Positions 16,083 to 24,956 of a stretch of DNA of 64,000 nucleotides are shown one piece after another. This DNA is from Eubacterium sp. 14-2 (GTDB taxonomy: Bacteria > Bacillota > Clostridia > Lachnospirales > Lachnospiraceae), in the NCBI RefSeq assembly GCF_000403845.2, contig NZ_KE159567.1:1868911-1932910 (forward strand), written 5' to 3'. The notes beneath the pieces are model-generated. The model was given only the letters and a program-made list of their open reading frames with translations. It was not told where the DNA came from and did not search any database. How positions within the stretch are numbered: position 1 is the stretch's first letter; the number at the start of each line of letters is the position of its first letter. The translations under genes were made by a program, and so were the position numbers.

Positions 16083-16898
16083 TCAGAATTGTCCGTTTTT
16101 TATCCGTACAGCTGCGTCTCTCACATGGCATTTCAGATATTCCACAATATCTGAATCATTCTGCCAGTATGTTTCTGCAAATTTTACCGTGACTTTTTCC
16201 AGTTGTGCCGCCAGTTCATCGTAAGTCAGGGATTCGCACATGGCTTTCGTCTGACGACGTTCGGATTCGGTAAATCCTGCTGTATCCAGGGGTTTTTTCA
16301 GCATAATATGGACCATCAGGTTTAAAAATATGGGATTCCCCAGATTTTCCATGCTGTCTTCGGAGTTTCCGAAAGAATCTTCCAGTACCGTTCTGATATA
16401 GGAGGGCTCCAGCTCCTGTAAAAAGCGCTGTTCCTGATAAAGGATTTTCAGATATTTGTATACCGCATCCACACCTGAATATGCGCTGAGATCTGCAGGA
16501 ACGGGATAATCCAGCATGATAATCGTATCCATGGGGGCATATTTCATATCATACCATTTCAGAAATTCCGGGATTCCCTTTAATATGGTATCCTGCAGGC
16601 AGATATTTCCGTACCACCGGAAGAAAGGTGTCAGGGAATTATAGAGCTTTCGCAGAGCTTCTGCTTTTTCTCTCACGAGACGACAGCCATGCTCATAAGC
16701 CTCTCTGGCTGTGATATGGTTTGCCATAAGCGTTCCGGTTCCGGCAGTTTCGTATTCCCGGATACAGTACAGCACAGCTTCCATCAGCTGCTCTGCTCTT
16801 TCATAGGTGACAGAGGTACTCTCAAAGCCTGTATACTGTCCTGCCAGTTCTGCCACAATTGGAATCAGCTCTTCCATTTCAAAATTTAATCTGCACAT
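16083..16898 (-). CDS. Conserved hypothetical protein, probably DUF6179 family
   Basis: 271-aa, mostly helical-looking soluble protein with no signal peptide or membrane segment. Segments such as YERAEQLMEAVLYCIREYE and FFRWYGNICLQDTILKGIPE resemble what I recall of DUF6179, a Clostridia family encoded next to DUF6323; I cannot verify this without a search. GGAG lies 7 nt before the ATG. It is downstream of the DUF6323-like gene (250-bp gap filled with repeats and hairpins). No function is known. Confidence 0.75.
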   Translation of the reverse strand: MCRLNFEMEELIPIVAELAGQYTGFESTSVTYERAEQLMEAVLYCIREYETAGTGTLMANHITAREAYEHGCRLVREKAEALRKLYNSLTPFFRWYGNICLQDTILKGIPEFLKWYDMKYAPMDTIIMLDYPVPADLSAYSGVDAVYKYLKILYQEQRFLQELEPSYIRTVLEDSFGNSEDSMENLGNPIFLNLMVHIMLKKPLDTAGFTESERRQTKAMCESLTYDELAAQLEKVTVKFAETYWQNDSDIVEYLKCHVRDAAVRIKNGQF

Positions 16899-16962: not shown

Positions 16963-17010
16963 AAGTGGGCAAGCCCACTTCAACTCCCCTAACCCCTCAC
17001 TCATGAGGGG
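16963..17010. repeat. Two adjacent intergenic hairpins
   Basis: AAGTGGGC (16963-16970) / GCCCACTT (16973-16980), then CCCCTCA (16993-16999) / TGAGGGG (17004-17010), both perfect. Neither is followed by a clear T-tract. They lie between the DUF6323-like and DUF6179-like genes and could reduce read-through or be remnants of mobile intergenic repeats. Confidence 0.6.
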
Positions 17011-17020
17011 CTTGCACATT

Positions 17021-17079
17021 TTGCCGCGCCGAGCACAATTGCGAAGCAATATTTTACCTCTTGTGCGAGTGCGCATATT
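17021..17079. repeat. Dispersed intergenic repeat, copy A
   Basis: A ~59-bp stretch beginning TTGCCGCGCCGAGCAC and ending GTGCGCATATT aligns with 17915-17970 (TTGCTGCGCCGGGTGC ... GTGTGCATAAT), with a shared ATATTTT in the middle. Both copies are intergenic, flank the DUF6323-like gene at a distance and lie in the same orientation. Confidence 0.6.
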
Positions 17080-17087
17080 ATTTTTTG

Positions 17088-17141
17088 TCTTATAGGAAAG
17101 ACACTTTCACGCTTTGGCGTGGCAAGGTATTTCCTATAAGA
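17088..17141. repeat. Dispersed palindromic intergenic repeat, copy 2
   Basis: Perfect 12-bp inverted ends TCTTATAGGAAA (17088-17099) and TTTCCTATAAGA (17130-17141) enclose a 30-bp core with TTTCACGCTTTGGCGTGGCAA, itself partly palindromic. It matches the element at 7252-7303 in ends and core layout. It ends 7 bp before the DUF6323-like stop codon. Confidence 0.8.
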
Positions 17142-17148
17142 TAAAATA

Positions 17149-17700
17149 TCAGGAAAGAAGACTGTACAGTGTGTCCAGATATACTTCTCTGTCCCAGCGC
17201 TGTACTTCGTCGAACTGCTGATACTCTCCATAACCGTCGCTTTTTTCGTATCCATGGTAACCTGCCCGGACAGCCTGAGCAAAGACATTCAGGCAGGTGC
17301 CTTCCAGGTACTCCAGATCCCCGGAACAGACAGTTTCAAACTGTTCTTTCATGAAATGGAGAAGTTCTGTGTCAGTAATCTCATCCAGCATTTCGTTTTT
17401 ACACTGATAAAAGATTTCCTGCAGGTGAATGAGTGTGTCGGTGTAATTATCTGCTGTAATATAGTCGGAGTCACAGAATTCATAAATGATTTTCGGAAGG
17501 ATGCTGCCGGATAATTCCACGCGTTTCTGCTCTTTCAGGGTCTGTTTCTGTTCCGTGACTAGCAGTTCCACCTCTTCCTGTGTCAGTGTAAGGCCAAATT
17601 TTTCCGTATACTGATTGGTTTCCAGTACCTGTGATATCTGCATTTTTCTGCCTGATTCCATGAAATATTCCATCAGGTTCCGTTTACTGTTATGATCCAT
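17149..17700 (-). CDS. Conserved hypothetical protein, probably DUF6323 family
   Basis: 183-aa soluble, Glu-rich, helical-looking protein. Segments TLTQEEVELLVTEQKQTLKE, IIYEFCDSDYIT and LIHLQEIFYQCKNE match my memory of the DUF6323 family, found in Clostridia next to DUF6179; this needs a profile search. AAGGAGG lies just upstream of the ATG. A promoter and a palindromic operator-like element precede it. No catalytic motif is evident. Confidence 0.75.
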   Translation of the reverse strand: MDHNSKRNLMEYFMESGRKMQISQVLETNQYTEKFGLTLTQEEVELLVTEQKQTLKEQKRVELSGSILPKIIYEFCDSDYITADNYTDTLIHLQEIFYQCKNEMLDEITDTELLHFMKEQFETVCSGDLEYLEGTCLNVFAQAVRAGYHGYEKSDGYGEYQQFDEVQRWDREVYLDTLYSLLS

Positions 17701-17732
17701 GGCAGTTCCTCCTTGTCAGCTGATGGGTAATA

Positions 17733-17755
17733 TGTTCACAAGTGCCCTGTGAACA
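17733..17755. promoter_or_regulatory. Operator-like palindrome for the DUF6323-like gene
   Basis: TGTTCACA (17733-17740) and TGTGAACA (17748-17755) are perfect inverted arms with a 7-bp spacer. It lies just downstream of the inferred transcription start (about 17761), the usual place for a repressor site. The regulator is unknown. Confidence 0.55.
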
Positions 17756-17767
17756 GTAACGTGGTAT

Positions 17768-17796
17768 AATATAACATGGATATTTTGTCATCTCAA
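17768..17796 (-). promoter_or_regulatory. Candidate promoter for the DUF6323-like gene
   Basis: Minus-strand TTGAGA (17791-17796), 17-bp spacer, TATATT (17768-17773); each box is one base from consensus. Distance to the ATG is about 68 bp. Confidence 0.6.
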
Positions 17797-17874
17797 GTCT
17801 GGAAAAAAACGTATTTTTGTGGTATAATAAAGCAAAGAAAGAGGCAATGAACAGGAGAGAAAAAACGATAATCC

Positions 17875-17916
17875 AAAGTGGCCGGTTCCCTCAGTCTGGA
17901 GGGAACCGGCCACTTT
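17875..17916 (-). terminator. 17-bp perfect hairpin downstream of hisIE
   Basis: Arms at 17875-17891 and 17900-17916 are perfectly complementary over 17 bp (GC-rich core GGCCGGTTCCC), loop of 8 nt. Read on the minus strand, T6 follows 9 nt after the stem, so it can serve as the his-operon terminator with a displaced T-tract. On the plus strand an extended -10 box lies ~50 bp upstream. Confidence 0.6.
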
Positions 17917-17970
17917 GCTGCGCCGGGTGCGGTTACGCAGTGATATTTTCCATGCACAAGTGTGCATAAT
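17915..17970. repeat. Dispersed intergenic repeat, copy B
   Basis: Counterpart of 17021-17079: begins TTGCTGCGCCGGGTGC, shares ATATTTT in the middle and ends GTGTGCATAAT. Its right part contains TGCACAAGTGTGCA, an imperfect dyad. It sits between hisIE and the strong hairpin. Confidence 0.6.
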
Positions 17971-18007
17971 TTTCTTTAAGTCAGTCAGGTTCCATGGTTT
18001 CGGACTT

Positions 18008-19288
18008 CTAGCGCTGGTTCAGCTCTTCTACAATATCTTCCCAGGTTACTTCTTTTTCCACCATCAGTACCATCATGTGATACAGTAAATCTGAAATTTC
18101 GTATTTAATCTCTTCTTTTTCCGGATTTTTTGCTGCAATGACAATTTCTGTAGCTTCCTCTCCCACTTTTTTCAGGATCTTGTCAATCCCCTTGTCGAAC
18201 AGGTAATTGGTATAGGAACCCTCTTTAGGATGAGCTTTACGGTCCTGAATGACCTCATAGACCTCTTCAAATATTCTCAGAGGATTTTTGGTGGTAAACT
18301 CCTTTTTGACAAGTTCCTGGAAAAAGCAGGTCGTATTACCTGTATGGCAGGCTGCTCCTACCTGAGAGACCTTCGCCAGAAGAGTGTCTTTGTCACAGTC
18401 AATGGTCAGGGATTTTACATACTGATAATGGCCGGAAGTTTCTCCTTTAATCCAGAGTTCTTTCCTGCTTCTGCTGTAGTAGGTCATTTTGCCAAGAGAC
18501 AGGGTGGTATTAAAAGATTCCTCATTCATATAGGCCATCATCAGCACTTCCGCTGTCCGGTAGTCCTGGACGATTACCGGAAGGAGCCCGTCGCTGTTCA
18601 GCTTAAATTCAGACCAGTCCATGGAGGATTCAAATTTTTTGGTTTCGATTCCCTCTGCAGCCAGGGTCTGTTTCAGTTCTGTGATATAGGTGTCGGGATT
18701 GCTGATATAATCTCCGCCGATTCCTGTGACACAGTCTTTTTTCAGAATTTCCACCCAGTGGTCTTTGTTGTAACCTTCCACAAGGACACTGAAAGGAAGG
18801 TCTGTAATATTTTCCAGAGATTCAATAATGTTTTCATTCAGTACAACCAGTTTGTGAACATGTTCTTCTACTTCTTTTTTATGTTTAAACATTAAATCCA
18901 CGTTTTCCATGGAAATCAGCAGTTTTTCCCGGCCAAACCGCTGAGCGGCGTCCTCTGCAAGCTGGACTGTTTCATATCTGGAACTGTCTAAAATAGTTCC
19001 TCTGCAGCCAGCATAAAGTAATTTCTTAATGTCTTCCAGTCTTGTAATGGTTCCGGCTCCGTAAATGGGAATTTCCACAAGCCGGCTCAGCTCTTTTATG
19101 GTGTGGAGGTTGGTATCATGCTCTTCGTCTGTTTCTGACAAATCAAAGATGTAAAGTTTATCCACACCGCTGTCGTTATATATTCTGGCCAGTTTTTTCC
19201 AGTCCCCGGCACATTCCGGATTTTTTTTCCCTTTGACTGCCATGCCGTTTTTCAGGTACATGGTGGCAATCAGGTTCTTATGTTCCAT
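18008..19288 (-). CDS. hisIE: HisIE with an N-terminal degenerate HisA/HisF-like barrel
   Basis: 426-aa fusion. Residues 5-212 align with the HisA/HisF (beta-alpha)8 barrel ([35 protein letters not shown]), but both catalytic aspartates are replaced: the first by Y11, the second by E128. Residues 224-325 are phosphoribosyl-AMP cyclohydrolase (HisI), with zinc and active-site motifs [24 protein letters not shown] and [12 protein letters not shown]. Residues 337-424 are phosphoribosyl-ATP pyrophosphatase (His[24 protein letters not shown]). HisIE therefore looks active (steps 2 and 3), while the barrel looks like a pseudoenzyme. It is last in the his operon. ATG at 19288 follows GGTGA. Confidence 0.92.
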
Positions 19289-19296
19289 ATCTTCAC

Positions 19297-19890
19297 CTAT
19301 AAACTACCTTTCGTTGACATAATATCTTTAATTCTTGGGTCTCTTGAGGTGGCTTCATCCAGCGCTCTTCCGAAAGACTTAAACAGCCCTTCGATCATGT
19401 GATGGTTGTTGGAGCCGTTTAAGAGCTTCATGTGCAGGTTCATGCCTGCGCTGTAGGAAATGGCATAAAAGAATTCCCGGACCATTTCTGTTTCCATATA
19501 GCCTACCCGTTCTGCGGTAAATTCGCCTTCAAAAGAAAAATACGGTCTTCCGCTTAAATCTATGGCGCAGAGTACCAGCGTTTCGTCCATGGGCAGGATG
19601 CAGCTTCCGTAGCGTCTGATTCCCCTTTTGTCCCTCAGTGCAATCCGTATGGCGTTTCCCAGCACAATCCCCGTGTCCTCAATGGTATGGTGGGTATCCA
19701 CAATCAGATCGCCGGTAACCTGAACTCTCAGGTCAAAAAAACCATGGCGGGCAAATCCATCCAGCATGTGGTCGAAAAAACCGATTCCCGTGTTCAGCTG
19801 GGTAGTTCCGCTGCCATCCAGGTTCAGGTTCAGACTGATATCTGTTTCTTTTGTTTTCCGGTGCTGTTTGGCAGTTCTGTCTCCAGGCAT
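19297..19890 (-). CDS. hisB: Imidazoleglycerol-phosphate dehydratase
   Basis: 197-aa monofunctional HisB dehydrating IGP to imidazole acetol phosphate. Two manganese-binding His clusters are visible: [13 protein letters not shown] with [10 protein letters not shown], and [25 protein letters not shown] at 19890 follows AAAGGAG. It lies between hisD and hisIE. Confidence 0.97.
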
Positions 19891-19929
19891 AACATTCTCC
19901 TTTTTGTATTCATCAGAAATGAATTTATT

Positions 19930-21222
19930 TTAATCCTCAAACCTTACTTTAATCGAATTTGCGTGCGCCGTCAACTGTTCCGAGGCAGCAAATTGTACAA
20001 TATCTCTGTAAATCGGTTCCAGCGCCTCTCTGGAATATGAGATAATACTGGATTTTTTGATAAAATCATCCACACCCAGAGGAGAGAAAAATTTTGCTGT
20101 GCCATTGGTGGGCAGCACGTGATTGGGCCCGGCAAAATAGTCGCCCAGAGGTTCGCTGGCGTAGTCGCCCAGGAAAATGGCTCCGGCGTTTTTGATCTTC
20201 ATCATGGTTTCAAAGGGATTGGCTGTTAAAATTTCCAGGTGTTCGGAAGCTATCTCACTGGCGGTTTCCACAGCATCTTCCATGGTTTCCGCAACCAGGA
20301 TATATCCATAATTTTCCAGGGATTTTTCAATAATTTCTTTTCTGGAAAGAACGGCGGTAAAGCTGTCCACTTCACGGGAAACCTGTTTGGCCAGTGCTTC
20401 ACTGGTGGTAATCAGGATGGCGCTGGCCAGTTCGTCGTGCTCTGCCTGAGATAACAAATCAGCAGCCACATACCGGGGATTGGCCGTTTCGTCTGCCAGA
20501 ACAAGGATTTCGCTGGGGCCGGCGATGGAATCAATGCTTACATGGCCGAATACTGCTTTTTTGGCCAGAGCCACATAAATATTGCCAGGTCCCACAATTT
20601 TGTCCACTTTTGGTATGGATTCTGTACCAAAGGCCAGGGCCGCCACAGCCTGGGCTCCGCCTGTTTTGTATATTTCATCCGCACCTGCCAGGTCTGCGGC
20701 TGCCAGGGTGGCAGGATTGACCTTTCCGTCCCGGTTACAGGGGGTTGTCATCACAATTTTTTCCACTCCTGCTACTTTTGCCGGAATGATATTCATAAGA
20801 ACAGAAGAGGGATAGGCTGCTTTTCCTCCCGGTACATATACGCCCACACGGGAGATGGCTGTTACTTTCTGTCCCAGCAGTACCCCGTCCGGCCGGCTGT
20901 CAAACCAGCTGTACTGTTTCTGTTTTTCGTGATAGGCCCGGATATTTTCCAACGCTTTTTTCATTACGTCCAGAAGTTTTGCATCTGTGAGACCATAGGC
21001 TTCTTCAATTTCTTCTTTTGTTACCCGGATATTTTCCGGAGTAAGATCTGCGCCGTCAAACTGTTTTGTATATGCAAACAGCGCTTCATCCTTTTTCTCA
21101 CGCACCTGAGCAATAATCTCACTGACTTTTGCTTCGTATTGCTGATAGTTGTTGGGACTTCGCTTTAACAAATCTTCCAGAAGATTTGTTTTTGTATCAT
21201 CTGTTAATTTTAATATTCTCAT
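19930..21222 (-). CDS. hisD: Histidinol dehydrogenase
   Basis: 430-aa zinc enzyme making the last two oxidations from histidinol to histidine with NAD+. Motifs: GVYVPGGKAAYPSSVLM, IVGPGNIYVALAKK, SIAGPSEILVLAD, LLSQAEHDELASAIL and GPNHVLPTNGTAKFFSPLGV. SD GGAGG precedes the ATG. A 198-bp AT-rich spacer with tandem repeats separates it from hisG upstream. Confidence 0.98.
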   Translation of the reverse strand: MRILKLTDDTKTNLLEDLLKRSPNNYQQYEAKVSEIIAQVREKKDEALFAYTKQFDGADLTPENIRVTKEEIEEAYGLTDAKLLDVMKKALENIRAYHEKQKQYSWFDSRPDGVLLGQKVTAISRVGVYVPGGKAAYPSSVLMNIIPAKVAGVEKIVMTTPCNRDGKVNPATLAAADLAGADEIYKTGGAQAVAALAFGTESIPKVDKIVGPGNIYVALAKKAVFGHVSIDSIAGPSEILVLADETANPRYVAADLLSQAEHDELASAILITTSEALAKQVSREVDSFTAVLSRKEIIEKSLENYGYILVAETMEDAVETASEIASEHLEILTANPFETMMKIKNAGAIFLGDYASEPLGDYFAGPNHVLPTNGTAKFFSPLGVDDFIKKSSIISYSREALEPIYRDIVQFAASEQLTAHANSIKVRFED

Positions 21223-21338
21223 TAATATTCCTCCCTGACACCCTGTACAGAAGCAATCTTATAAAAGTTAATTCTGAATTATATAAAAAACAATCTGCGG
21301 TAAAAATAAAAAATCAAGTCTGTATTCTATATATACTG

Positions 21339-21424
21339 TTAAAATATGGATTAATATTATGAATTTCATGTTAAAACATAAATTAATATTATGAACTTCA
21401 TGTTAAAATATAAATTGATATTAT
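21339..21424. repeat. Tandem 32-bp repeat inside the his operon (2.7 copies)
   Basis: Copy 1 21339-21370, copy 2 21371-21402, partial copy 3 21403-21424. Each starts TTAAAAYATRRATT and carries ATATTAT; copies 1 and 2 end with TTCATG. The array is extremely AT-rich and the third copy runs into the hisG stop codon. It has no spacers and is not a CRISPR array. Confidence 0.85.
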
Positions 21425-22074
21425 AAAACCTCTTTTAAATCCTGAATTAATCGTGTGATTCGTTCATGTTCCATTTTCATGCTGACCTGATTTACCACCA
21501 TTCTCGCAGAGAGAGGACATACCTCCTCCAGCACATGCAGGCCATTTTCCCGCAGGGTGGAACCCGTCTCCACAATGTCTACAATAACTTCGGACAGTCC
21601 TACGATCGGGGCAAGTTCAATGGAACCGTTTAGCTTGATAATTTCCACCGTCTGGTGTTTTCTGTTGTAAAAATAATTTTTGGCAATTCTGGGATATTTG
21701 GTGGCAACGCGAATCAGCTCATGATGTTTCAGAAGTTCTTCTGCTTCTTTTGGTCCGCAGACGCACATCCTGCATTTGCCAAATCCAAGGTCCAGCACTT
21801 CATAAATGTTTCGGGCTTCTTCCAGAATGGTGTCTTTTCCCACAATTCCAATATCTGCCGCTCCGTATTCCACATAGGTGGGCACATCGGGGCCTTTGGC
21901 CAGAAAGAATTTCAGTTTCAGTTCTTCATTGACAAAAATCAGTTTCCGGGTATCTTTGTCTTTCATTTCCTGGCAGGTAATCCCTGTTTTTTCAAAGGCG
22001 GCCAGCGCCTGCTTTGCCAGTCTGCCTTTTCCCAGTGCAAAGGTTAAATATCTCTGTTCCTCTATGGTATCCAT
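21421..22074 (-). CDS. hisG: ATP phosphoribosyltransferase, short form
   Basis: 217-aa catalytic subunit of the first histidine-pathway enzyme (ATP + PRPP). It is the short HisG that lacks the C-terminal regulatory domain and needs HisZ, encoded directly upstream. Motifs: TFALGKGRLAKQ, GAADIGIVGKD and the PRPP-binding VDIVETGSTLRENGL. Confidence 0.97.
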   Translation of the reverse strand: MDTIEEQRYLTFALGKGRLAKQALAAFEKTGITCQEMKDKDTRKLIFVNEELKLKFFLAKGPDVPTYVEYGAADIGIVGKDTILEEARNIYEVLDLGFGKCRMCVCGPKEAEELLKHHELIRVATKYPRIAKNYFYNRKHQTVEIIKLNGSIELAPIVGLSEVIVDIVETGSTLRENGLHVLEEVCPLSARMVVNQVSMKMEHERITRLIQDLKEVL

Positions 22075-22121
22075 GTTATATCCTTTCTCTTTACATTTCA
22101 GTCAATATGGAAACGGGCCCC

Positions 22122-23309
22122 TTAACACAGAAACTGAATCTTTGTCATATTCATGCGTCTGGCATAGGACTGATAATCTTTTTGTGTTTTTGTTTCCTGC
22201 CATTTGACAAGGGAAACCTGATGTCCCTGTTCCCGCATAATAATTGCCTGCCGGATGGCTTCTTCCTGTTTCTGTTCCTGATACACCAGGAGAATTCCAT
22301 TGTGGCTGACAGGAATCTCTGTTTTCTGACGGGATAATGCGGCCAGAAGCTGGTCCACTGCCACTGCAAATCCGATGGCTGGGGCATTTTTTCCGAAAAA
22401 GGTGAGCAGTTTGTCATAACGTCCGCCCTTTGCCACCGGTTCCCCGCTTCCGAACGTGTAGCCGGAAAAAATGATTCCGGTATAATAGTGATAGGTACTC
22501 AGCATACCGGGCTCAATGGAAACATATTTTTCCACGTCGTAATACTTTAATACCTGGGTCAGTTCTTCCAGATGTTCCAGTGCATGGAGAATCACCGGAT
22601 AAGGGGCAGACAGTTTTTTTGCCCGCAGCAGCAGTTCTTCTGACATACAGGTATTTCCCAGCATGGAAAACAGTTCCCGCAAATCTTCCGGTAAATGAAG
22701 GGCGTCCAGAAGTTCTTCCACACCGAAAAAATTCTTATTGGATATGAGTTCCACCAGTTCCTGTTCGGTTTCTTCTTCCAGGCCTGCGGCCTCGGCCAGT
22801 CCCCGGAAAAAGTCCACATGGCCCACTCCAATCTGAAATTCCTGCAGACCTGCCACTTTCAGCGCGTTTACCACAAGGGCAAGAATTTCTCCGTCGGCAG
22901 CTACGGAATTATCGCCGATTAACTCTGCTCCGGACTGGGTGGTTTCTTTCAGCCTGCCCTGATAGCTGCTGTTGTTGATAAAGGTATTTCCCATATAACA
23001 GAGGCGGACCGGAAATTCTTCGTCTCCGTAGTATTTTGCCGCACATCTTGCGACAGAGGGGGTAATATCCGGACGGAGCACCAGTGTATTGCCCTCCCGG
23101 TCAAAAAATTTATATAAATCTCTGGAAGGTGTTGTTCCGATTTCCTGGCTGAAAATATCAAAAAATTCAAAAGTCGGAGTTTCTATGGTATGATATCCGT
23201 ACTTTTTCAGCAGTTCATGGAGGTTATTCTGTAAAACCTGTTTTCGTGCGCATTCACTGCTGTAAATATCCCGCACTCCTTCCGGGGTATGTAATAATTT
23301 CTGTCTCAT
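22122..23309 (-). CDS. hisZ: ATP phosphoribosyltransferase regulatory subunit
   Basis: 395-aa HisRS-like paralogue that activates and gives histidine feedback to short HisG. HisRS-like segments: LHTPEGVRDIYSSECA, RPDITPSVARC and GGRYDKLLTFFG. ATG at 23309 is chosen since AAAGGA lies 6 nt upstream; the ATG at 23324 would place that SD inside the coding region. First gene of the his operon. Confidence 0.95.
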   Translation of the reverse strand: MRQKLLHTPEGVRDIYSSECARKQVLQNNLHELLKKYGYHTIETPTFEFFDIFSQEIGTTPSRDLYKFFDREGNTLVLRPDITPSVARCAAKYYGDEEFPVRLCYMGNTFINNSSYQGRLKETTQSGAELIGDNSVAADGEILALVVNALKVAGLQEFQIGVGHVDFFRGLAEAAGLEEETEQELVELISNKNFFGVEELLDALHLPEDLRELFSMLGNTCMSEELLLRAKKLSAPYPVILHALEHLEELTQVLKYYDVEKYVSIEPGMLSTYHYYTGIIFSGYTFGSGEPVAKGGRYDKLLTFFGKNAPAIGFAVAVDQLLAALSRQKTEIPVSHNGILLVYQEQKQEEAIRQAIIMREQGHQVSLVKWQETKTQKDYQSYARRMNMTKIQFLC

Positions 23310-23388
23310 AATCTGTCCTTTCATCTGTATATGGAAATCTTCCTGTTTCTGAAGCTGATTCAGCAGATTCCATGATATACCGGCACTT

Positions 23389-23409
23389 TAGTATGCTACC
23401 ATGCTACCA
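23389..23409 (-). promoter_or_regulatory. Candidate his operon operator (tandem ATGCTACC)
   Basis: ATGCTACC occurs twice head-to-tail at 23393-23400 and 23401-23408, preceded by TAGT so that TAGTATGCTA is also an imperfect palindrome. The block starts about 9 bp downstream of the inferred transcription start. I see no T-box or terminator-antiterminator here, so a DNA-binding repressor is the simplest reading. Its identity (for instance a TrpR/YerC-like HisR) is a guess. Confidence 0.45.
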
Positions 23410-23424
23410 CGATAAAACAATAAT

Positions 23425-23453
23425 ATTATATAAGAAATCTGTATTTTTGTCAA
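23425..23453 (-). promoter_or_regulatory. Histidine operon promoter (perfect consensus)
   Basis: Minus-strand TTGACA (23448-23453), exactly 17 bp, TATAAT (23425-23430). The -35 overlaps the recU stop codon (23450-23452). The leader to hisZ is about 110 nt. Confidence 0.85.
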
Positions 23454-23983
23454 CTTCGTTTTTCCAGGTCCTGCTGCATCAGCTCCAGATAAGGCACCAG
23501 GATTCCGCCTTTGGAAGAGAGGAAAAAATCCGGTTCCAGTTCCTCGTAGCGAAAACTTTTTCTTCCTCCTGCTTCGGCCCGATTCCAGAATTCCATGAGT
23601 TTTTTGTGGCGCAGATAATAAAATTCATTTCTGTGTGAGTAAAAAATCAGCAGAAAGGAAATTCCTTTCTGGCCCTCAAACTCTTCCATAAACCGAATCT
23701 GATGGGAATGGATGTTCTGCAGGGGAAAGGTATCGGTATGGCATTCCTTTGCGTCAAAGCATACCGGGATTCCCTGTACTGCTCCGATATAGTCCACGGT
23801 ACTTTTCTGATCAAAATAGGCCAGGGTAATGTGCCGGCTGTCTTTGTCAATCCGAACAGGTGTGATCGGGGTGGGGACTTTCTGGATAAGGGCCAGTCCG
23901 TGTTCCGCATATTTTTCATTGGTAAGATTGATAAATTCTTCCAGAGTGGAACCGCGCAGGCCCCTGGAGTTCCATGTTGCCAT
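23450..23983 (-). CDS. recU: Holliday junction resolvase RecU
   Basis: 177-aa Gram-positive resolvase that cuts four-way junctions with RuvAB and modulates RecA. Family motifs: NSRGLRGSTLEEFIN, PTPITPVRI, the nuclease core STVDYIGAVQGIPVCFDAKE, and the stalk-side HQIRFMEEF...GISFLLIFY. It follows an RluA-family gene by 13 bp; its 3' end contains the his promoter -35. Confidence 0.93.
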   Translation of the reverse strand: MATWNSRGLRGSTLEEFINLTNEKYAEHGLALIQKVPTPITPVRIDKDSRHITLAYFDQKSTVDYIGAVQGIPVCFDAKECHTDTFPLQNIHSHQIRFMEEFEGQKGISFLLIFYSHRNEFYYLRHKKLMEFWNRAEAGGRKSFRYEELEPDFFLSSKGGILVPYLELMQQDLEKRS

Positions 23984-23996
23984 AATAGCTTCTCCC

Positions 23997-24956
23997 TTAT
24001 CTGTGTGTTCTGAGGAAGTCGAGTGTTTTTTGGAAAATTCCGCTGACCGGTGCTTCCAGTGTTCTGCCGTCCGCCAGTTTTATCAGGGAGGCATGGAGCA
24101 GCTGGGACTGGATGCCAAGTTCCCGATATCCCCAGGTATTGATATGTTTATCTCCGTATTTGTGATCTCCCAGTACCGGATACCCCAGGGCGGCCAGATG
24201 GGCCCGGATCTGATGGGAACGTCCGGTAATCAGGCGTACGTTCAGGAGGGTAAAATCTCCCTGCTGTTCCACGGTAAAAGTTTCCACCGGCATACAGGCT
24301 GTCTGGATATGTTTGCTGCCGGGAACTTCTGTTTGGGTTACTTTTACCTGGTTTCGGATTTCATCTTTTGACAGCCATCCTTCCAGCAAACGTGATTCGG
24401 AAATTTTTCCCTTCACAAGGCAGAGATAATATTTTTCCGCAGAGCGGCTCTGTAACTGTGCTCCCAGTTCCTGCAGGCCTTTCAGGCTCTTTCCGGCAAT
24501 CAGGAGGCCGGAAGTATTTCGGTCCAGACGGTTGCAGACAGAAGGCCGGAAGGTTTTTAACTCCTCTTCTGTCAGCTCCTGTTTTCCCAGCAGATAGCCA
24601 ATGATATATTCATTGGCGGAAATATCCGAGTGTTTTCCTTTCTGGGAAAGCATTCCCGCCGGTTTGTTGATGGCCAGGATATTTTCATCTTCATAAATAA
24701 TGTCCAGCGAAATCCGGGGATAGGTTCTGGCCGGGGCTTTTGAAAATTTTGTCCAGGTTTCCTCAGACAGAAATAATTTAACCTCATCTCCCAGTTGGAG
24801 TTTCTCGGAGCCGTCTGCTTTTTTGCCGTTGAGGGTAATATTTTTTTTCCGGAGCATTTTATAAATAAAACTTCCAGGGGCCTGAGACAGGAGTTTTTTC
24901 AGGTATTTATCCAGACGCTGATTTTTCTCGTTGTTTCCGATCTGAAATTCTTTCAT
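23997..24956 (-). CDS. RluA/RluC-type pseudouridine synthase
   Basis: 319-aa enzyme: S4 domain at residues 10-65 (QRLDKYLKKLLSQAP ... KNITLNGKK), catalytic motif CNRLDRNTSG with predicted nucleophile D145 (the usual His before RLD is Asn), and LITGRSHQIRAHL at the C-terminus. Probably modifies 23S rRNA; exact sites cannot be assigned. It overlaps the YgiQ gene stop by 4 bp. Confidence 0.92.
   Translation of the reverse strand: MKEFQIGNNEKNQRLDKYLKKLLSQAPGSFIYKMLRKKNITLNGKKADGSEKLQLGDEVKLFLSEETWTKFSKAPARTYPRISLDIIYEDENILAINKPAGMLSQKGKHSDISANEYIIGYLLGKQELTEEELKTFRPSVCNRLDRNTSGLLIAGKSLKGLQELGAQLQSRSAEKYYLCLVKGKISESRLLEGWLSKDEIRNQVKVTQTEVPGSKHIQTACMPVETFTVEQQGDFTLLNVRLITGRSHQIRAHLAALGYPVLGDHKYGDKHINTWGYRELGIQSQLLHASLIKLADGRTLEAPVSGIFQKTLDFLRTHR

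Follow-up and report, generated by a model that had tools for sequence, protein, structure and literature searches.

A histidine operon of Eubacterium sp. 14-2 ends in a gene whose product has a predicted HisF-like (beta-alpha)8 barrel N-terminal to HisI and HisE. There is strong evidence that this barrel is a pseudoenzyme, called pseudo-HisF here. The reading that we favour, with some reserve, is that it is a HisE-docking helper derived from the operon's own HisF. A helper of HisE is probable because, among the relatives sampled, one outer surface of the barrel is kept and because the barrel comes and goes with HisE. The window is the whole stretch of 64,000 nucleotides that was analysed.

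The fusion gene and its operon

The minus-strand frame of the gene is open from its ATG start, and frame 1 of the plus strand over the same positions is interrupted by stops (Table 1). Three Pfam domains were found above cut-off in the product, His_biosynth at residues 6-130 (E 1.4e-17), PRA-CH at residues 250-323 (E 8.9e-35) and PRA-PH at residues 341-426 (E 3.5e-22), and the barrel-HisI-HisE fusion first read in a preliminary description of this DNA is thus real. The NCBIfam HisIE model (NF002747) covers residues 226-426 with 273.3 bits, for a cut-off of 187. Models for barrel proteins stay below theirs: WbuZ (74.9 bits) and AglZ/HisF2 (58.6 bits) fall far short, HisF gives 56.2 bits for a cut-off of 294.55, and HisA gives 40.9 bits for a cut-off of 228.95, the Asp pair being missing as well. 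The pseudo-HisF domain is hidden because the NCBIfam models would label the gene as plain HisIE.

The HisI and HisE domains retain their motifs, as had been stated. Indeed, 53 of their columns show conservation of at least 95% in each of two sets, 59 fused proteins and 30 barrel-free HisIE. These columns include D297-C-D-x-D301, C314-H315, C321, E377-E378, E381 and D400, which we take to be metal or catalytic motifs. By NCBIfam, the operon is ordered hisZ-hisG-hisD-hisB-fusion gene, with the fusion gene last and 8 bases from hisB. Rfam gave no match at gathering scores in the region 17000-24500. Downstream of the operon, the minus-strand ORFs 17149-17700 (183 aa) and 16083-16898 (271 aa) had no NCBIfam match at 1e-10.

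Table 1. Features of the fusion gene and its operon, in positions of the window.
Feature	Positions	Strand	Basis
Pseudo-HisF-HisI-HisE fusion gene, 426 aa	18008..19288	-	ORF, Pfam and NCBIfam
N-terminal pseudo-HisF barrel, residues 1-214, predicted complete (beta-alpha)8	18647..19288	-	AlphaFold2, Foldseek to HisF
Y11 codon (position of HisF catalytic Asp11)	19256..19258	-	alignment with 25 HisF
E128 codon (position of HisF catalytic Asp130)	18905..18907	-	alignment with 25 HisF
alpha3 stripe, residues 83-94 (R83 E85 D86 K88 K89 Y92 G94)	19007..19042	-	family alignments
alpha4 stripe, residues 113-119 (R117 F118 G119)	18932..18952	-	family alignments
HisI (PRA-CH) domain, residues 226-330	18299..18613	-	Pfam, NCBIfam, conserved columns
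HisE (PRA-PH) domain, residues 340-426	18011..18271	-	Pfam, NCBIfam, conserved columns
hisB, upstream in operon	19297..19890	-	NCBIfam
hisD	19930..21222	-	NCBIfam
hisG	21421..22074	-	NCBIfam
hisZ, regulatory subunit	22122..23324	-	NCBIfam
Terminator-like hairpin and T run 3' of the gene	17860..17917	-	by eye from sequence, no terminator program

Fold and lost catalysis of the barrel

AlphaFold2, given 55 aligned relatives, predicted a complete N-terminal (beta-alpha)8 barrel (mean pLDDT 89.2 and pTM 0.69 for the whole protein). In Foldseek, the predicted barrel matched the HisF structures 4evz_A, 1thf and 1gpw_A with TM-scores by target length of 0.74, 0.71 and 0.75, and the back part of the protein matched the HisIE structures 6j2l and 7bgn. 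The HisF fold extends along the whole length of the barrel in this model; sequence profiles recognise it only over about residues 1-130, a few of them to 146-151.

The catalytic positions were read from an alignment of 54 barrels with 25 HisF, 6 HisF fusions and 28 HisA. Y11 aligns with HisF D11 and E128 with HisF D130, just as first described. Asp11 is kept in 0/54 barrels (Y in 23, F in 8, N in 8, G in 6, others, and one gap), Asp130 in 11/54 (one gap), and the two are never found together. Among the controls, D11 is present in 25/25 HisF and D130 in 23/25, and the pair is intact in 6/6 HisF fusions. The HisF-conserved residues D98, K99 and Q123 are R96, G97 and E121 in the window protein; across the barrels, D98 is kept in 1/54 and K99 in 12/54. 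Two phosphate-loop glycines are retained in 35/54 and 44/54 barrels.

In the source genome (completeness 99.93%), the fusion protein is the single PRA-CH match and, within the window range, the fusion gene is the sole PF00977 match. On another contig, a HisF of 385.4 bits (cut-off 294.55) adjoins a HisH of 234.2 bits, above its curated cut-off. A eukaryote-type HisA (TIGR02129, 264 aa) is also found elsewhere, with 303.4 bits for a cut-off of 229.3, and no canonical HisA was found above cut-off in this genome. The preliminary description had placed hisA, hisF and hisH outside the operon and had read the barrel as a possible pseudoenzyme, naming as checks a structure prediction, an alignment with HisA and HisF, and a search for intact hisA and hisF in the genome. 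The prediction and the alignment gave a complete HisF-like barrel with the Asp pair lost, and both genes are present elsewhere, so that the two claims stand. Since HisF and a HisA of eukaryote type are encoded at other loci, neither of these two functions requires the barrel here, and the HisF-HisH pair together with this HisA therefore makes it a pseudo-HisF.

The remaining PF00977 matches of the source genome are weak, apart from an AglZ/HisF2 gene that accompanies WbuX and a second HisH. At this locus (contig 1 of the source genome, 482500-490500), the WbuX amidotransferase, second HisH and AglZ/HisF2 genes are adjacent, and the ORFs around them are presumably glycosyltransferase-like. We take the ORF downstream of the eukaryote-type hisA to resemble glutamine synthetase, with a dapF-like ORF further on. 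Roseburia genomes have been described with the same layout, hisF-hisH lying apart and hisA with glutamine synthetase, in layout passages that name no barrel (PMC7478625).

It is very improbable, more so than any other reading considered here, that the barrel is a working enzyme, whether HisF, HisA or a new activity. Its predicted fold and many of its phosphate-loop glycines are kept, the source genome has no canonical HisA above cut-off, and no HisF above cut-off was found in six of the tabulated genomes with a barrel (G034, G068, G089, G096, G165 and G175, completeness 67-99%; G165 and G175 are also without HisA above cut-off). However, Asp11 is lost throughout and the two Asp never occur together, the source genome holds HisF, HisH and eukaryote-type HisA elsewhere, and HisF is above cut-off in 132/150 family genomes, the six being part of the 18 that lack it. 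As the family shows free variation at the catalytic positions, the new activity that had been proposed is unlikely, although polar top-face residues are kept in the window's subclade.

These polar residues would fit a regulatory pseudoenzyme that binds a phosphorylated pathway metabolite in a top-face pocket and tunes HisIE. Among the 55 proteins of the subclade, D49, H57 and G79 are invariant and S51, D54, E56, N101, S126, D131 and K135 are at least 90% conserved, most of these residues falling where strands 2-5 of the predicted secondary structure end, or immediately after. Moreover, HisZ of the same operon is itself a regulatory subunit. Across the family, however, the residues vary (D49 in 40/54, N101 in 26/55 and S126 in 14/56), and shortening has left six barrels with 134-175 aa. 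We judge this regulatory role to be unlikely.

Distribution, conserved stripe and coupling to HisE

A strong barrel match was obtained in 27/29 genomes of the window's genus, the two without it being 63% and 82% complete. In a Lachnospiraceae sample of 150 genomes, one per genus, PRA-CH was found in 137, in frames of more than 400 aa for 104 of the 137 by manual count of the list. The barrel is present in 107 of the 129 family genomes tabulated, one per genus; the PRA-CH genomes G190-G192, G194, G196, G198 and G200 are missing from the table, and L053, where a contig end cuts HisI, was dropped. In a class-wide profile search of 391 genomes, 15/16 own-family genomes matched the barrel at E <=3.7e-40, and the best match outside the family, 1.8e-33, was at the level of HisF.

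The barrel evolves fast: its median pairwise identity is 28%, whereas HisI reaches 64% and HisE 71% (57 proteins thinned from 77), and six genera have it shortened to 134-175 aa. Both facts would suit a fusion leftover, that is, a spacer without a specific role. Among same-genus pairs, the median dN/dS, rough because dS is about 1.1, is 0.09 for the barrel (15 pairs), 0.037 for HisI (13) and 0.031 for HisE (13), which indicates in rough terms that purifying selection acts on the barrel in this genus. This value and the retention of a surface stripe in most of the 54 barrels argue against a leftover, which we consider improbable and place below the regulatory role.

This stripe, on alpha3/alpha4, is the most conserved part of the barrel. 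Helix periodicity would put it on the outer side of the two predicted helices (residues 84-92 and 107-118 in the AlphaFold2 secondary structure). Among the 54 barrels, 5 from the window's genus and the rest from 49 other genera, E85 is found in 53, D86 in 52, K88 in 52, K89 in 50, Y92 in 51, G94 in 54, R117 in 49, F118 in 53, G119 in 54 and R83 in 42. The same residue occurs among the 25 HisF in 0 (R83), 5 (K88), 6 (K89), 0 (Y92) and 9 (R117), and R83 and Y92 are absent from all 25 HisF and 28 HisA. Many HisF also have E85, D86, G94, F118 and G119. Only R83, K89 and Y92 are clearly new, since HisF frequently has a basic residue at 88 and at 117 (18/25 each, including 13 R at 88 and 9 K at 117). 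All 6 shortened barrels keep R83, E85, D86, K88, K89, Y92, G94, R117, F118 and G119. In 80 loci leaning to near relatives, the stripe is kept by the way they were selected; it is not counted as evidence because the motif ED[VI]KKx[LIF]Y[AT] was used to fetch them.

According to passages of PMC8115485, the alpha3/alpha4 side is where HisF meets HisH, and D98 of HisF faces HisH. The stripe thus lies on the HisH-facing side, and in some genomes hisA is directly upstream, as might be expected if the barrel were a scaffold for passing ProFAR on to HisA or for docking HisH. The stripe was nevertheless rejected as a HisH site on the near-complete loss of D98 and the replacement of K99 in most barrels; in addition, the barrel co-occurs with both types of HisA, and the stripe follows HisE. 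Such a scaffold is about as improbable as a leftover, or slightly more so. The channelling of ProFAR to HisA that had been suggested found no support: the barrel occurs both with canonical operonic HisA (L287, L288) and with the distant eukaryote-type HisA, and nothing was seen linking its conserved surface to HisA. The scaffold idea is plausible and partly right, although what the barrel proved to be coupled with is HisE in cis and not HisA.

This coupling was tabulated from 151 proteins, taken from the 129 PRA-CH family genomes and 22 other members of the genus. Five proteins of another HisI lineage (L054-L056, L063 and L064) were excluded, leaving 146. A stripe was called broken when at least 3/10 positions were changed, with R/K tolerated at 83 and 117, D/E at 86 and K/R at 89, and HisE was called decayed at 8 or more of 43 columns; both cut-offs were fixed after the first cases had been seen. 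L038, L041 and L042, with HisA before HisI, and L084, with 51 residues and no barrel match, were assigned manually to the class without a barrel. In 123/146 proteins the stripe is kept and HisE intact, and barrel and HisE are both absent in 17/146, 3 of which are HisA-HisI fusions. The stripe is broken with HisE absent in 1/146 (L048) and with HisE decayed in 2/146 (L035 and L339); it is kept with HisE decayed by scoring in 2/146 (L058 and L052), and one protein is cut by a contig end. An intact HisE with the barrel absent or the stripe broken was found in 0/146 proteins of this HisI lineage. In the other lineage, left uncounted, three family genomes have barrel-free HisIE with HisE (L054-L056), and L063 and L064 are HisI alone.

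The exceptional proteins are informative one by one. L048 is a barrel-HisI without HisE and has 6/10 stripe positions changed. In L035, from the window's genus, HisE has 18 departures, including E377 and E378, HisI has 2/49, and 5/10 stripe positions are changed. L339, fetched among 60 added PRA-CH stretches after the HisE-coupling idea had been written down, has 14/43 HisE columns decayed, 2/49 HisI departures and 5/10 stripe positions changed, and retains K88, Y92, R117, F118 and G119. In L051, HisI is ruined (21/49 departures), HisE has 4/43, and the stripe is kept except for K89R. L052 has HisI and HisE decaying and a partly decayed stripe (R83T, K89R, Y92H, E113T and R117K). The genomes of L051 and L052 have no HisF or HisA above cut-off, and these two are cases of a dying pathway with the fusion gene still in frame. 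HisE of L058 has a frameshift, the rest being readable in another frame, L027 has 2 stripe changes with HisE intact, and L057, in the group without barrel and HisE, is divergent, with 22/49 HisI departures. A tie of the stripe to HisI was rejected on L035, L339, L048 and L051. In these sequences, the barrel and its stripe co-vary with the presence and integrity of HisE and not with HisI, a relation that is correlational.

Stand-alone HisI proteins (113-170 aa, L299-L310) share M268 and Y270 with the fused proteins in 12/12; all 12 are without barrel or HisE in frame, no HisE match turned up in the flanks that were fetched with them, and 10/12 have hisB in the flank. In L038, L041 and L042, a HisA with its Asp pair intact is fused to HisI (355-382 aa) in place of pseudo-HisF, with no in-frame HisE. 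The joint absence of barrel and HisE in the 17 proteins could reflect gene replacement. The HisI and HisE residues specific to fused proteins were rejected as a contact map: the HisA-HisI fusions share most of the HisI ones without having the barrel, and this use fails because it is confounded by kinship. On a HisI tree, the barrel/stripe and HisE traits agree in 133/133 rows (143 rows thinned, L051, L052 and L057 omitted, and L058 scored as HisE intact). This tree is poorly resolved; the best tree has 15 changes per trait, of which strong branches require only 2, and significance is out of reach with 2 independent supported pairs.

Barrel and HisE flank HisI and are gained and lost together, and therefore point to a shared job. 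The alpha3/alpha4 stripe would dock HisE, either in cis or across a dimer, and docking would stabilise HisE or keep it close to HisI for the handover of PR-AMP from the one to the other. In Acinetobacter HisIE, PR-AMP is passed by proximity and not through a tunnel, according to passages of PMC10242683, and this transfer is a step that a HisE dock could help.

Origin of the barrel and comparison with known systems

In a tree of HisA and HisF, the barrels form one clade on the HisF side (SH-aLRT 96), beside HisF and not within it. The clade holds 49 barrels out of 54, since the 5 shortest were left out, and the tree was made by a quick method, is midpoint-rooted and has several long branches. 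An origin from HisA was rejected on this placement; it is also disfavoured by Foldseek, where the barrel matches among the best 50 rows are HisF or HisF-derived proteins.

In 28/30 outgroup loci of the phylum, read manually, a HisF-like ORF adjoins barrel-free HisIE, and in most of them a HisA-like ORF precedes the HisF-like one. Other families have HisF-HisI or HisF-HisIE fusions of 377-394 aa (L181, L182, L185 and L186), 410 aa (L184) and 461-470 aa (L183 and L281-L283), and the Asp pair is intact in the six that were aligned (L181-L186). Apart from most others, HisI of the window's lineage groups with the HisF-HisI fusions L181, L182, L185 and L186, the HisA-HisI fusions and L270 (94/93). 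L270 is a HisIE without barrel from another family, and its place on this side of the tree, like that of the barrels beside HisF, counts against the favoured reading. For the HisI tree the alignment is short, rows were thinned at 75% identity, and the added set omits L040, L043, L047, L051 and L052, some of which re-enter as thinned rows. A hisA gene lies directly before the fusion, where such an origin would put it, in 2/85 loci (L287 and L288) of a sample leaning to near relatives. On the gene order, the Asp-intact fusions of other families and the HisI tree, the barrel probably descends from the operonic HisF via a HisF-HisI(E) fusion. The operon's own hisF would have been fused to hisI(E) in the family ancestor while hisH left, and a hisH-hisF pair elsewhere would have taken over the cyclase work, freeing the fused barrel from catalysis.

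Of the 150 family genomes, 104 have a eukaryote-type HisA above cut-off and 31 a canonical one, and the two were found together in none when the lists were compared by eye; this is a clean replacement within the family. Five genomes with eukaryote-type HisA (L292-L296) keep a HisA-like gene directly before the fusion, with 203-228 bits, below cut-off. The first catalytic Asp is lost in 5/5 of these genes (H, N, N, H and H), as against 0/25 readable HisA controls (3 more being gapped), and the second is kept in 4/5. An operonic pseudo-HisA next to pseudo-HisF looks like the same replacement in progress. Pseudo-HisF might even be an obligate, cis-built subunit helping HisE, in which a dead pathway enzyme has become the docking or control domain of an earlier step, accompanied in some genera by the operonic pseudo-HisA and parallel to the N-terminal domain of fungal HIS4. 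We put this forward only tentatively, as doubtful and well short of probable, if above any of the alternatives weighed earlier.

Compared with HisF, a model (beta-alpha)8 enzyme, the barrel is alike in its fold over the whole length and in an N-terminal half recognisable by sequence; unlike HisF, it has lost Asp11 and Asp130, has D98 and K99 replaced, has no adjoining HisH and scores 56.2 bits where 294.55 are required. Residues 226-426 are alike to HisIE (NF002747; 6j2l, 7bgn), with the conserved residues kept, but the fusion has about 215 extra N-terminal residues. In bacterial HisF-HisI(E) and archaeal HisA/F-HisIE fusions the barrel is N-terminal to HisI(E), as here, whereas the six fusions aligned have an intact Asp pair. 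HisZ is a helper or regulatory subunit of HisG. Like pseudo-HisF, it is a relative of an enzyme (HisRS) kept in the same operon (205 bits with hisS, for a cut-off of 286.75); unlike pseudo-HisF, it is a separate protein with a different fold and partner.

Fusions of hisF-hisI-hisE (PMC9413887) and of HisA/F-HisIE (PMC11237513) are mentioned in the literature, and the fusion passages of these two papers do not mention a dead barrel. In our literature search, within open-licence PMC, no description of HisIE with an inactive barrel came up. The yeast HIS4 N-terminal domain gave about 4 bits against the barrel, out of the expected register and with one approximate sequence, which gives no support to homology. 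The conserved pseudo-HisF domain is a variant of the known HisF-HisIE fusion, and most likely a helper of HisE. It offers a natural experiment within one family, in which a barrel without chemistry has its predicted fold kept and its stripe fixed, and has been shortened in at least six genera, and a case, open to testing, in which one enzyme would have become a helper domain for a second enzyme of its pathway. Finally, fungal HIS4 likewise has a poorly conserved N-terminal extension before HisIE, unexplained in 2007 and suggested to be structural in passages of PMC1963479, and the fusion protein provides a bacterial system for the role of such HisIE extensions.
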